Positions 32,823 to 61,236 of a DNA stretch of 64,000 nt are shown piece after piece. The position numbers and the translations under genes are program-made. The notes beneath the pieces were generated by a model. That model did not search any database and was not told the origin of the DNA. It worked only from the letters and a program-made list of their open reading frames with translations. The DNA is from an uncultured bacterium (lineage in GTDB: Bacteria > Desulfobacterota > Desulfobaccia > Desulfobaccales > 0-14-0-80-60-11). The stretch covers positions 1 to 64,000 of the forward strand of contig CALEAV010000015.1 in NCBI GenBank assembly GCA_937943575.1. The letters are read 5' to 3'. The first letter of the stretch is position 1; every line of letters begins with the position of its first letter.

Positions 32823-33422
32823 TCAGGAAAAGGTGATGACCTTGTCGGCCATCTGCAGGTGGGTCACGATATCCAGCATGTTGGTGGTCTCTCCCGCCGC
32901 CTTCTGCTCCAGGAGGCCGAAGTGCTGCAGACAGGTGCCGCACACCAGCACCTTGACCCCGGCCCCGGCCAGCCGGGTGAGGCTCTCCAGCACCGGGGAG
33001 CCGGCCACCGCCAGCTTCACCCCGGCGTTCACCAGCACCAGAGTCCAGAGGCCGGACATCTCCGGCAGGGTGGCCAGGAAATTGGCCATCAGTCTCCCTC
33101 CCAGCTCATCATCCCCCCGGCCCAGCCGGTCCGTGCCCATGAACACCAGGATCTTCTGTTCCCCCTCCCGGCCCGGGGCGGTGGCCATGGCCCCCGGCCC
33201 GGAACCCTCCCGGCGTCCCGCCACGGCAAAGCCCCCTTCCACGGGGCTCACCTGGACCCCAAAACCGGCCCGCTCCAGAAACCGGCGCACATTCTCCTGG
33301 GCCGCCGGATTGTCCACCATGACCGTCAGGGCCTCCACTTCGCCGGCCTCCAGCACCTCCTTGGTTTTCAGCACCGGATGGGGGCAGGCCAACCCCCGAC
33401 AGTCTACCCGTTTCTCTTTCAT
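32823..33422 (-). CDS. yedF: YedF-type sulfurtransferase-like selenium metabolism protein (TusA + DsrE-like)
   Basis: VDCRGLACPHPVLKTKEVLE (TusA-like) followed by DsrE-like domain ILVFMGTDRLGRGDDELGGRLMANFLATL. Confidence 0.85.
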   Translation of the reverse strand: MKEKRVDCRGLACPHPVLKTKEVLEAGEVEALTVMVDNPAAQENVRRFLERAGFGVQVSPVEGGFAVAGRREGSGPGAMATAPGREGEQKILVFMGTDRLGRGDDELGGRLMANFLATLPEMSGLWTLVLVNAGVKLAVAGSPVLESLTRLAGAGVKVLVCGTCLQHFGLLEQKAAGETTNMLDIVTHLQMADKVITFS

Positions 33423-57135: not shown

Positions 57136-57579
57136 ATGGAGGGGAATTCCTACAAAATTCTCGGATTGTGCTGTCGCTGGTGCTCCTATGCCGGCGCCGA
57201 CCTGGCCGGCGCCATGCGTCTGCAGTACCCCCCGGAGATCCGCATCGTCATGGTGCCCTGCACCGGGCGGGTGGATATTCTGCACATCCTCAAGGCCTTC
57301 GAGGCCGGGTTCGACGCCGTCTTCGTCTCCGGCTGCCACGAAGGCGACTGCCATTACCTGGAGGGCAACGTCCGGGCCCGCAAACGCATCACTAAGCTGA
57401 AAAAAGTGTTGGAGGAGCTGGGCCTGGAGCCCGAGCGCCTGGAAATGTTCCACGTCAGCTCCGGCGAAGGCCCCAAATTTGCCCAGGTCTGCCGGGAGAT
57501 GTACGACCGGGTGGCGCGCCTGGGCCCCAACCCGGTGCGCCGCGCCCCTCAGCCCGCGGCGGCCGCCGCCTCCAACTGA
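57136..57579 (+). CDS. MvhD-type [2Fe-2S] hydrogenase/Hdr electron-transfer subunit
   Basis: ILGLCCRWCSYAGADLAG...PEIRIVMVPCTGRVDILHILKAFEAGFDAVFVSGCHEGDCHYLEGN. Confidence 0.92.
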   Translation: MEGNSYKILGLCCRWCSYAGADLAGAMRLQYPPEIRIVMVPCTGRVDILHILKAFEAGFDAVFVSGCHEGDCHYLEGNVRARKRITKLKKVLEELGLEPERLEMFHVSSGEGPKFAQVCREMYDRVARLGPNPVRRAPQPAAAAASN

Positions 57580-57602
57580 CTGCCTGAAAGAGAGGTGCCA
57601 TC

Positions 57603-58874
57603 ATGGAAAAGGTCCTGGATCTGAAGAATCTGGCCGCCCGGCGTCGGCAGAGCGCCTTCGCCGACATCATCCCCGAGGCCCACGCCAATATCTGCTTCAC
57701 CTGCGGCACCTGCTCGGGAGGCTGCCCCCTGACCGGCATGGAAAGCACCAGGGACGAGGGCCTGGACTGCCGCAAGGCCATCCGCATGGTGCTTCTGGGG
57801 ATGGAGCAGGAGCTCATCGACTCCCGCTTCCCCTGGATCTGCACCGCCTGCAACCGCTGTGAGGAAGGCTGCCCCATGGGCATCAAGCTCACCAAGGTCT
57901 GGTACCGGGCCAAGGCCCTCAGGCCCCGGGACAAGGTGCCGGGCATCCTCCATAAAGGCGTGGAGCTCTGCCTCAAGACCGGCAACAACATGGGCATCCC
58001 CACCGACGAATACGTCACCCTGCTGCAGGAGCTGGGGGAGGAGCTGGCCGAGGAATGCTGCCCCGGCTTTGAAACCCCGGTGGACAAGGAGGACGTGGAC
58101 TACCTCCACTTCCAGAACTCCAAGGAGGCCTACGCCGAGCCCGATGACATGAAGTGGTGGTGGAAGATCTTCTATGCCGCCAAGGTGAGCTGGACCACCC
58201 CCTCCACCAACTGGGAGTCCGTGGACTGGGGGCTCTTCACCGCCAATGCCGAGGCCTCCAAGGAGATCGCCCGCCGCAAGGTGGAGCATATGAAGCGCCT
58301 GCGGGCCCGCACCCTCATCCTGCCGGACTGCGGCGGCGCCTCCTACGGCACCCGCTACAACATCGAGCAGTACTTCAAACACGAGTTCGGGCCGAAAACG
58401 GGCCACGAATACGTCTATTTCTTCGACGTGCTCCTGCGCTTCCTGGAAGAGGGGCGCATCAAAGTGGACAAATCGGTGCATGCCGACCGCATCGTCACCT
58501 GGCACGACTCCTGTAAGCACGGCCGCTCCGCGGTGATGGCCTTCGGGGACGCCTCCAACTTCGAGAAGGCCCGCAAAATCATCAGCTACCTCATCGACAT
58601 GGACAACTTCCGGGAGATGCCCCACAACCGCATGCAGGCCTTCTGCTGCGGCGCCGGCGCCGGCAACTGGCCCGGCCCCTTCGAAAAGGAGAAGACCGAG
58701 CACGGCCGCTTCAAGGTGGACGACATCCGGGCCACCGGCGCCGATTTGGTGGTGGTGGGCTGCTCCAACTGCCGGGACCAGATCATGAAAAACCTCAAGC
58801 CCAAATACAACCTGGATATCGAGGTGAAATACCTCTGGGAGATGGTGGCCGACGCCCTCATCCTGGACGTCTAA
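57603..58874 (+). CDS. HdrC-HdrB-like fused heterodisulfide-reductase-type iron-sulfur protein
   Basis: Two [4Fe-4S] motifs (CFTCGTCSGGCP, CTACNRCEEGCP) then CCG-type cysteines (HDSCKHG, FCCGAGAG, GCSNC). Confidence 0.88.
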   Translation: MEKVLDLKNLAARRRQSAFADIIPEAHANICFTCGTCSGGCPLTGMESTRDEGLDCRKAIRMVLLGMEQELIDSRFPWICTACNRCEEGCPMGIKLTKVWYRAKALRPRDKVPGILHKGVELCLKTGNNMGIPTDEYVTLLQELGEELAEECCPGFETPVDKEDVDYLHFQNSKEAYAEPDDMKWWWKIFYAAKVSWTTPSTNWESVDWGLFTANAEASKEIARRKVEHMKRLRARTLILPDCGGASYGTRYNIEQYFKHEFGPKTGHEYVYFFDVLLRFLEEGRIKVDKSVHADRIVTWHDSCKHGRSAVMAFGDASNFEKARKIISYLIDMDNFREMPHNRMQAFCCGAGAGNWPGPFEKEKTEHGRFKVDDIRATGADLVVVGCSNCRDQIMKNLKPKYNLDIEVKYLWEMVADALILDV

Positions 58875-58935
58875 GCCTCCCCTTAAACCGGAGGGGGGCT
58901 TCCCCCCTCCGCATCCCTCCCCAAGGAGACCCTGC

Positions 58936-60210
58936 ATGCCTGGTCCCTATGATGAGATGTGGGAAAAACTCAACCTGGACCTGAGCGCCCACGAGCATCT
59001 GCTCCAGGTCCTGGGAAAATTCTACGGCGACATCTACCTCAGCCAGCAGGGCCGCCTCAAGGGCATGGAGTATCTGGACTTTGTCCTCTCCGAGGTGCAC
59101 GGCCTGCGCATCCAGGAGCTGCAGGCGGCCAAGGCCCAGGGCCGCAAAATCATCGGCACCTTCTGCATCTTCGTCCCCGAAGAGCTCATCCTGGCCGCCG
59201 ACGGCGTCTGCGTGGGCCTGTGCGCCGGCGCCGAAATCGGCAAGGAGGCGGCGGAGAAGATCCTGCCCCGCAACACCTGCGCCCTCATCAAGTCCTTCGT
59301 CGGCTTCAAGCTCTCCCGCCTCTGCCCCTACATCGAGTCCTGCGACCTGGTGGTGGGCGAGACCACCTGTGACGGCAAGAAGAAAGCCTACGAGATCTTC
59401 GAGGAATACGCCCCGGTCTATGTCATGGAAATCCCCCAGATGAAGCAGGCCTGCGATCGGGACCTGTGGCGGGCCGAGGTGGTGCGCTTCAAGGCCAAGG
59501 TGGAGGAAATCACCGGCAGGACCATCACCGCCGAGAAACTCAGAGAGGCCGTCCGCCTGGTGAACGCCCGCCGTCGGGTCCTTAAGCGCCTTAATGAGCT
59601 CCGGGCGGCCGTCCCCACCCCCATCTCCGGCCGGGATGTGCTCCTCATCAACCAGGTGAGCTTCTATGACGATCCGGTGCGCTTCACCGCCAAGATCGGC
59701 GAGCTCTGCGACGAGCTGGAGAAGCGGGTCCGGGCCGGGGAGGGCGTGGTGCCCGCCGGCACCCCCCGCCTGATGCTCTCGGGCTGCCCCATGGCGGTGC
59801 CCAACTGGAAGCTCCCGTATATCATCGAGTCCTCAGGCGCCGTCGTGGTGGGCGAGGAATCCTGCATCGGCACCCGCAACATCCGGGACCTGGTGGACGA
59901 GACGGGGCAGACCCTGGAGGAGCTCCTCGACGCCCTGGTGGACCGCTACATGCGCATCGACTGCGCCTGCTTCACCCCCAACCGGGAGCGCCTGGAGCAC
60001 ATCGTGCAGATGGCCCGGGACCTGAAGGTGAACGGCGTCATCCATTTTGCCCTCAATTTCTGCCAGCCCTATGCCATGGAGGCCTTCAAGGTGGGCCGGG
60101 CCCTGGAGAAAGCAGGCATCCCCATGCTGCCCATCGAAACGGATTACAGCATGGAGGATGTGGAGCAGCTCAAGACCCGGGTGGAGGCCTTCGTGGAGAT
60201 GGTGCGCTGA
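58936..60210 (+). CDS. Double-cubane cluster protein (DCCP/YjiM-like, 2-hydroxyacyl-CoA dehydratase superfamily)
   Basis: RNTCALIKSFVGFKLSRLCPYIESCDLVVGETTCDGKKKAYEIFEEYAPVYVMEIPQ...LMLSGCPMAVPNWKLPYIIESSGAVVVGEESCIGTRN resembles E. coli YjiM from memory. Confidence 0.82.
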   Translation: MPGPYDEMWEKLNLDLSAHEHLLQVLGKFYGDIYLSQQGRLKGMEYLDFVLSEVHGLRIQELQAAKAQGRKIIGTFCIFVPEELILAADGVCVGLCAGAEIGKEAAEKILPRNTCALIKSFVGFKLSRLCPYIESCDLVVGETTCDGKKKAYEIFEEYAPVYVMEIPQMKQACDRDLWRAEVVRFKAKVEEITGRTITAEKLREAVRLVNARRRVLKRLNELRAAVPTPISGRDVLLINQVSFYDDPVRFTAKIGELCDELEKRVRAGEGVVPAGTPRLMLSGCPMAVPNWKLPYIIESSGAVVVGEESCIGTRNIRDLVDETGQTLEELLDALVDRYMRIDCACFTPNRERLEHIVQMARDLKVNGVIHFALNFCQPYAMEAFKVGRALEKAGIPMLPIETDYSMEDVEQLKTRVEAFVEMVR

Positions 60211-60223
60211 CGGGAGACAGGTT

Positions 60224-60457
60224 ATGGCCCCGGACAGAGCCGTGGTGATCCCCTTCGCCTGCCACCACCAGTTTCAGGACCGGCGGCGGCTGCAGGAGCT
60301 GAAAAACACCCTCCTGGCCGAAACCCTGGCCTTTGCCCAGGTGGCCCTGGACAACGCCGCCCTTATGGGCCCGGACGCCAAGGCAATGCGCCTCCTGGAG
60401 ATGGCCTGCCGCCTGCTGGAGGAGGCCCGGGACCGCCTGGTGCGGGAATTGCTGTGA
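60224..60457 (+). CDS. Small helical hypothetical protein (77 aa) of DCCP operon
   Basis: MAPDRAVVIPFACHHQFQDRRRLQELKNTLLAETLAFAQVALDNAALMGPDAKAMRLLEMACRLLEEARDRLVRELL; stop overlaps the activase GTG. Confidence 0.65.
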   Translation: MAPDRAVVIPFACHHQFQDRRRLQELKNTLLAETLAFAQVALDNAALMGPDAKAMRLLEMACRLLEEARDRLVRELL

Positions 60458-61236
60458 GCGAAAGGCCTTCTGCCTTGGTGGCGGGGATCGATATCGGCTC
60501 CCGCTCCATCGAGCTGGTGCTGCTGGAAAACGGGGAGGTGGTCCACTGGGATCTCCTCCCCACCACCTACGACCCCCTGAAGCAATGCCGCAGTCTGCTG
60601 GACCGGGTGCAGGTCCGGCGGGTGGTGGCCACCGGCTACGGCCGCCGCCTGCTGGAGGGCAATCCCGGGCAGCTTGAGGTGCGCACCATCACCGAGATCC
60701 AGGCCTATGCCCTGGGGGCCCGCCATCTGGTGCCCACCGCCCGCACCATCCTGGACATCGGCGGCCAGGACACCAAGGCCATCCTCCTCACTCCGGAAGG
60801 CCGGGTGGCCAAGTTCGAGATGAACGACCGCTGCGCCGCCGGCACCGGCAAATTCCTGGAGTTCATGGCCGTGGCCCTGCAGATCCCCCTGGAGGAGTTC
60901 GGCGCCTTCGCCCTGACGGCCGATAAGCGGATCACGGTGAGCAGCATGTGCACGGTGTTCGCCGAGAGCGAGGCCACCAGCCTCATGGCCCGGGGCGAAA
61001 AGCCCGCCAACATCGCCCTGGGCCTGCATCTGGCCGTCGTCTCCCGCACCGTGGCCATGCTGAGAAGGGTGGGGATCACGCCGCCCCTGGTCTTCGCCGG
61101 TGGCGTGGCCCACAACCCTGCCGTGCGCCGGCTTCTGGAGGAGGCCCTGGGGCAGGAGGTCATGGTGCCGGAGCAGCCGGATCTGGTGGGGGCCCTGGGC
61201 GCCGCCCTCCACGCCTGGCGGCTGTCGGAAGATTGA
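60454..61236 (+). CDS. ATP-dependent activator/reductase (YjiL / 2-hydroxyglutaryl-CoA dehydratase activase family)
   Basis: VAGIDIGSRSIELVLLENGEVV...TILDIGGQDTKAILL...NDRCAAGTGKFLEFMA...VFAGGVAHNPAVRRLLEEALG. Confidence 0.93.
   Translation: MSERPSALVAGIDIGSRSIELVLLENGEVVHWDLLPTTYDPLKQCRSLLDRVQVRRVVATGYGRRLLEGNPGQLEVRTITEIQAYALGARHLVPTARTILDIGGQDTKAILLTPEGRVAKFEMNDRCAAGTGKFLEFMAVALQIPLEEFGAFALTADKRITVSSMCTVFAESEATSLMARGEKPANIALGLHLAVVSRTVAMLRRVGITPPLVFAGGVAHNPAVRRLLEEALGQEVMVPEQPDLVGALGAALHAWRLSED

Follow-up and report, generated by a model that had tools for sequence, protein, structure and literature searches.

A double-cubane-cluster protein operon with MvhD and HdrC-HdrB subunits, and its possible role in selenium metabolism

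A tightly spaced operon of five genes, located at positions 57136-61236 on the + strand of the window (that is, the whole stretch of 64,000 nt of DNA analysed here), encodes a double-cubane-cluster protein (DCCP) and its activase together with an MvhD-type subunit, a fused HdrC-HdrB protein (HdrCB) and a small protein of 77 amino acids (aa). Selenium genes are found next to DCCPs in many lineages, which points to a concrete, testable role for these proteins. We estimate at roughly 45% the probability that the operon is a selenium-pathway reductase, with an electron route, a direction of transfer and a substrate that we infer; if true, this reading would give DCCP a physiological role. DCCPs catalyse the reduction of acetylene, hydrazine and azide and are considered archetypal for the benzoyl-CoA reductase/dehydratase family, their biological function being stated as unknown (PMC11971306). 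An earlier note on this DNA had proposed that MvhD and HdrCB form a module dedicated to delivering electrons to DCCP, and had missed the selenium context of both DCCP and the operon HdrCB. Selenium metabolism is a better-supported context than dedicated electron delivery.

Gene content of the operon

The earlier note had described five tightly spaced genes on one strand, and these were indeed found as open reading frames at that place and on the + strand, with intergenic distances of 23, 61, 13 and -4 bases in gene order and with purine-rich stretches upstream of several start codons. Four of the five proteins match curated families far above chance. The first gene (57136..57579, +) encodes an MvhD/FlpD-type [2Fe-2S] subunit of 147 aa, which scores 176.5 bits against FlpD (PF02662; cut-off 22.3), resembles solved MvhD/FlpD subunits (phmmer; 7bkb_F, E 3e-46) and carries cysteines C13, C16, C42, C67 and C72, all invariant among 11 relatives. 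The second gene (57603..58874, +) encodes the HdrC-HdrB fusion (HmcF/DsrK-like, 423 aa), with matches to CCG (42.3 bits; cut-off 20.6) and Fer4_8 (30.8 bits; cut-off 27) and with two HdrC-like [4Fe-4S] motifs. Pfam sees one CCG domain, which is complete and reads C304-x43-CC-x37-CxxC (C304, C348-C349, C387, C390); that is, the five-cysteine set occurs once, and the first CCG domain is down to one cysteine. A further cysteine, C243, is also invariant. The profile matches and the similarity to solved subunits agree with the identities that the earlier note had given to these two proteins.

MvhD and HdrC/HdrB modules are shared with the MvhADG-HdrABC heterodisulfide reductase. However, the operon encodes neither HdrA nor a hydrogenase, its HdrC and HdrB form a single protein, and the second complete CCG domain of HdrB is missing. 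The best curated relatives of the fusion are the HmcF/DsrK/TmcB iron-sulfur proteins of sulfate reducers, yet the operon HdrCB reaches none of the equivalog cut-offs (163.8 vs 750; 123.6 vs 400) and is not accompanied by membrane partners. While the absence of an HdrA gene from the five genes was as first reported, a search of the home genome for hdrA revealed HdrA-type flavoproteins on contigs C22, C19, C7 and C3, next to other MvhD copies. These proteins are strong HdrA2 matches, yet remain below the HdrA2 cut-off; their presence elsewhere in the genome means that an HdrA partner would be available in trans.

A close HdrCB paralogue in the home genome and in most of its relatives carries a TGA codon in frame (PEUGH) where the operon HdrCB has C243 (L247:8771-10117; G000:C4:101797-103032), and is thereby a predicted selenocysteine-containing HdrCB. 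This suggests that C243 may be a reactive residue. Three more MvhD genes of the home genome contain one TGA each (G000:C7:10932-11300, G000:C51:17205-17570 and G000:C22:29397-29765), in the context GUHLGDCHY twice (C67 position) and CCRYUAY once (C16 position); if read through, selenocysteine would occupy two different cluster cysteines.

The third gene (58936..60210, +) encodes a protein of 424 aa that exceeds the cut-off of the DCCP equivalog NF040772 (499 bits; cut-off 350) and that of Pfam HGD-D (PF06050; 425 bits; cut-off 28.4). The alignment with the solved DCCPs 6ENO/7YYL is full-length (residues 7-424; E about 1e-147), and at the level of its sequence the protein is a DCCP. Seven cysteines are invariant among 12 relatives (C77, C115, C145, C310, C343 and C376, as well as C96). 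The first six are all present in 6ENO and agree in number with what a double-cubane cluster should require, and these intact residues are the probable [8Fe-9S] ligands. No in-frame TGA was seen in the DCCP hits listed, and the idea that DCCP is itself a selenoprotein was rejected on that account. The fifth gene (60454..61236, +) encodes the DCCP activase, a BadF/YjiL-type ATPase of 260 aa that matches BcrAD_BadFG (166 bits; cut-off 31.5) and CoA_E_activ (TIGR00241; 218.8 bits; cut-off 125.4) and contains the cysteine motifs NDRCAAGTG and SSMCTVFAESE. The pairing of a DCCP with a YjiL-type activase, as claimed in the earlier note, was thus confirmed by both curated models. Like the DCCP and DCCP reductase of Carboxydothermus hydrogenoformans (6ENO, 7YYL), the operon combines a full-length DCCP with the same cysteines and an adjoining cognate ATPase with [4Fe-4S]-type cysteines; it differs in the addition of MvhD, HdrC-HdrB and the 77-aa protein.

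The fourth gene (60224..60457, +) encodes the 77-aa protein, for which no match was found among curated families. The open reading frame is conserved in eight related genomes (34-75% identity), where it also sits between DCCP and activase, and its changes relative to the nearest relative fall on the three codon positions as 10/10/24. Because of this conservation and the coding-type excess at third positions, it is a real gene. Structure prediction gives two helices forming a helical hairpin (mean pLDDT 78).

Selenium genes around DCCP and HdrCB

All genes around 81 DCCPs were clustered without choosing families beforehand, and the most recurrent neighbours included YedF/TusA, SelD, LysR, YedE and Se_S_carrier. 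Cluster representatives exceeded the cut-offs of the respective models: 208 bits for YedF (TIGR03527; cut-off 110), 487 for YedE (TIGR04112; cut-off 200), 326 for SelD (TIGR00476; cut-off 125), 324 for LysR_Sec_metab (NF040786; cut-off 250) and 66.9 for Se_S_carrier (PF11823; cut-off 25). Adding 80 named loci that cover many phyla brought the survey to 150 distinct DCCP loci, and the neighbourhoods of 36 other HdrCB or MvhD genes served as control loci. Markers (SelD, YedE, YedF, LysR_Se and Se_S_carrier, plus SelA/SelB) were counted at a distance of up to 8 kb by tblastn with fixed bit thresholds, such that single calls may err. At least one selenium gene was detected near 48 of the 150 DCCP loci and near 0 of the 36 control loci, and at least two near 31 of the 150. 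In the well-flanked subset the corresponding figures for one gene were 29/77 and 0/27 (Fisher p 2.8e-5, the loci not being independent). The remaining two thirds of the DCCP loci have no selenium neighbour, partly as a result of the short contigs at which many neighbourhoods end early. On the DCCP tree (101 rows) the selenium-neighbour label changes about 29 times, which is too many for one shared accident. The phyla with selenium-linked DCCPs include Myxococcota and, with loci outside the home phylum, Actinomycetota (L217), Chloroflexota (L225, L236), WOR-3 (L234), Bacillota (L237) and Acidobacteriota (L210). In Escherichia coli, the third gene of yjiM-yjiL-ytiA encodes a Se_S_carrier protein; the 77-aa protein was considered as its counterpart and rejected (hhalign probability 0.2%). 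Co-occurrence of DCCP and SelD at the level of whole genomes does not discriminate, as the background of SelD is already high: SelD is present in 234 of 247 genomes of the home phylum and in 28 of 31 DCCP genomes of other phyla, and its frequency in Acidobacteriota is 74%.

Within the home family, YedF lies 3′ of the activase in L041, L045 and L047, and a MauE-like protein and rhodaneses also occur 3′ of the activase in some genomes. No selenium gene was found within 20 kb of the operon in the home genome; its sole YedF copy (window 32826-33422, -; TIGR03527, 197 bits) is 24 kb away on the opposite strand. SelD is encoded on another contig by a TGA-containing gene. Together with tRNA-Sec, which the genome also encodes, TGA-containing SelD and YedF indicate that the home genome decodes selenocysteine.

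The operon HdrCB belongs to a supported subclade (98/97) of eight members in which DCCP-linked, activase-linked and SelD-linked proteins are mixed. One member follows directly behind SelD (L246), and another follows SelD-YedE-TusA-Se_S_carrier-kinase (L239), the genome in this case being complete and free of DCCP. Moreover, SelD, YedE, TusA, Se_S_carrier, DCCP (frameshifted), activase, MvhD and a more distant HdrCB occur in one stretch in L050. The mixed subclade together with L050 argues that DCCP and operon-type HdrCB may serve one selenium-related process, and argues against HdrCB being a mere wire for DCCP. Extending the selenium role to every HdrCB relative was rejected, since no selenium genes were found in 20 regions of the wider HdrCB and selenocysteine clades. 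In G022, the frame of the DCCP of L050 is broken at L050:8474-9744 by an assembly error or by decay.

Part of this context has precedents. Published selenium clusters (SelD, YedE, YedF, DUF3343/Se_S_carrier and LysR_Se; PMC5322559) have homologues of DCCP or of its activase nearby, a table there listing dehydratase/activase homologues among the neighbours of selenium genes; so do type I mlp gene clusters, the description of which provisionally linked DCCP to selenium (PMC10418091). The relevant portions of these two papers neither mention MvhD/HdrCB nor address a mechanism. No report of HdrCB together with DCCP or YedF was found among open-access papers, which is weak evidence of novelty. A provisional link of DCCP to selenium is already published (PMC10418091), and the variant with MvhD/HdrCB appears to be new.

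Candidate functions

As shown for homologues, DCCP and its ATPase would be expected to work in a nitrogenase-like manner, with ATP driving electrons onto the [8Fe-9S] double-cubane cluster. MvhD and HdrC-HdrB would form a soluble iron-sulfur chain, fed by a cellular HdrA or by a formate-dehydrogenase complex, and the variant is a candidate non-ferredoxin electron donor for a low-potential, ATP-driven reductase. In two relatives (L043, L251) the operon is extended by formate-dehydrogenase-type molybdopterin oxidoreductase genes and additional MvhD genes, which would fit a role in electron input. The chain would either hand its electrons to the activase or cleave a Se-S or Se-Se bond at a step before DCCP, in which second case the non-cubane cluster of HdrCB would be the site of cleavage; DCCP would carry out the low-potential step. 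To our knowledge, the route by which anaerobes convert environmental or recycled selenium into selenide for SelD is poorly defined. The likeliest job of the operon would be to supply SelD with selenide made from oxidised or bound selenium, or to maintain the selenium pool in a reduced state, and the product would be selenide or another reduced form of selenium for SelD. In its strictest form, in which DCCP and MvhD/HdrCB would be a dedicated ATP-driven selenium reductase whose double-cubane cluster itself reduces oxidised or protein-bound selenium to selenide for SelD, we hold this proposal as tentative.

Alternatively, MvhD and HdrCB could be a dedicated electron module for a DCCP whose substrate does not contain selenium, much as class II benzoyl-CoA reductase has its Hdr-type subunits. 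The linkage of MvhD/HdrCB with DCCP is conserved across the home genus and further genera of its family (L039-L043, L248; split over contigs in L054/L245), with direct adjacency kept in L039-L043. In the sister family a more distant HdrCB accompanies DCCP (L046, L050, L052), and HdrCB genes lie near DCCP in separate lineages, adjacent and of a related type in L143, L148 and L152, and also in L111, L170, L205 and L211. The DCCP tree (101 rows) shows 6 changes of the HdrCB label, and HdrA-type proteins are available in trans, all of which would suit such a module. Nevertheless, HdrCB lies within 8 kb of DCCP in 15 of the 150 distinct loci, so that most DCCPs have none nearby and HdrCB is one option among others for DCCP; operon-type orthologues also stand beside SelD, in G024 without any DCCP, and selenium genes recur around DCCP and HdrCB alike. 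Thus, what the earlier note had claimed of the linkage holds in several genera of the family and a few other lineages, a minority of DCCP loci, whereas the word 'dedicated' is weakened by that count and by the SelD-linked orthologues. Dedicated electron delivery is plausible in view of the gene order but partly contradicted, and we regard the version with a non-selenium substrate as doubtful. In G018, shortened and frame-broken copies of MvhD and HdrCB adjoin DCCP (L040:5892-7508), reflecting assembly error or decay, and an intact HdrCB is kept beside SelD (L246).

A second alternative makes HdrCB the selenium enzyme: its non-cubane cluster and C243 would reduce Se-S or Se-Se bonds (selenotrisulfide, perselenide) with electrons from MvhD, and DCCP would perform a separate, harder reduction, e.g. 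C-Se cleavage or recycling, with no exchange of electrons between the two. Such a division of labour would account for the SelD-linked HdrCB of L239 and L246, and is consistent with the one complete non-cubane motif, the predicted selenocysteine that takes the place of C243 in close paralogues and the relatedness to DsrK/HmcF; the tight operon, with its four-gene order including DCCP and activase in the family, speaks against it and makes it unlikely. Finally, that the 424-aa protein is a subunit of a 2-hydroxyacyl-CoA dehydratase or benzoyl-CoA reductase, as its HGD-D family and activase family (both shared with those enzymes) might suggest, is highly improbable and refuted at the sequence level: it scored below the cut-offs of all curated models for these enzymes (120.6 vs 700; 88 vs 454) while exceeding that of NF040772, and it is the only PF06050 protein in the home genome (95.8% complete), where no second HGD-D-type subunit was found, so that it does not represent one half of an acyl-CoA dehydratase. 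The outcome the earlier note had set against its own reading, a dehydratase with a partner subunit, was therefore not encountered. Nor does the operon encode BamB, the tungsten-dependent subunit found with BamC-I in class II benzoyl-CoA reductase (Bam).

Other genes in DCCP and selenium clusters

Genes for an ABC transporter of the phosphate type recur near DCCP (L143, L148, L152, L042, L161, L167, L194 and L213); they include one for a PstS-like protein and, where the sequence was read, those for permease and ATPase, and gave no lead to function. A rhodanese gene with two in-frame TGAs adjoins YedF and the DCCP operon in two loci of the home family (L041:4853-5359 and L045:3937-4440); it would read FYUAGLAU if TGA encodes selenocysteine, and a paralogue five hundred bases further on has FYCGFTKC. 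The YedE/Se_S_carrier clusters regularly include a gene for a YjeF-C-terminal-like (Carb_kinase) protein (L124:13669-14523, L239:11674-12555 and L050), and a diverged EF-G-like GTPase is encoded in many selenium/DCCP clusters (L113, L116, L119, L124, L130, L134 and L139).
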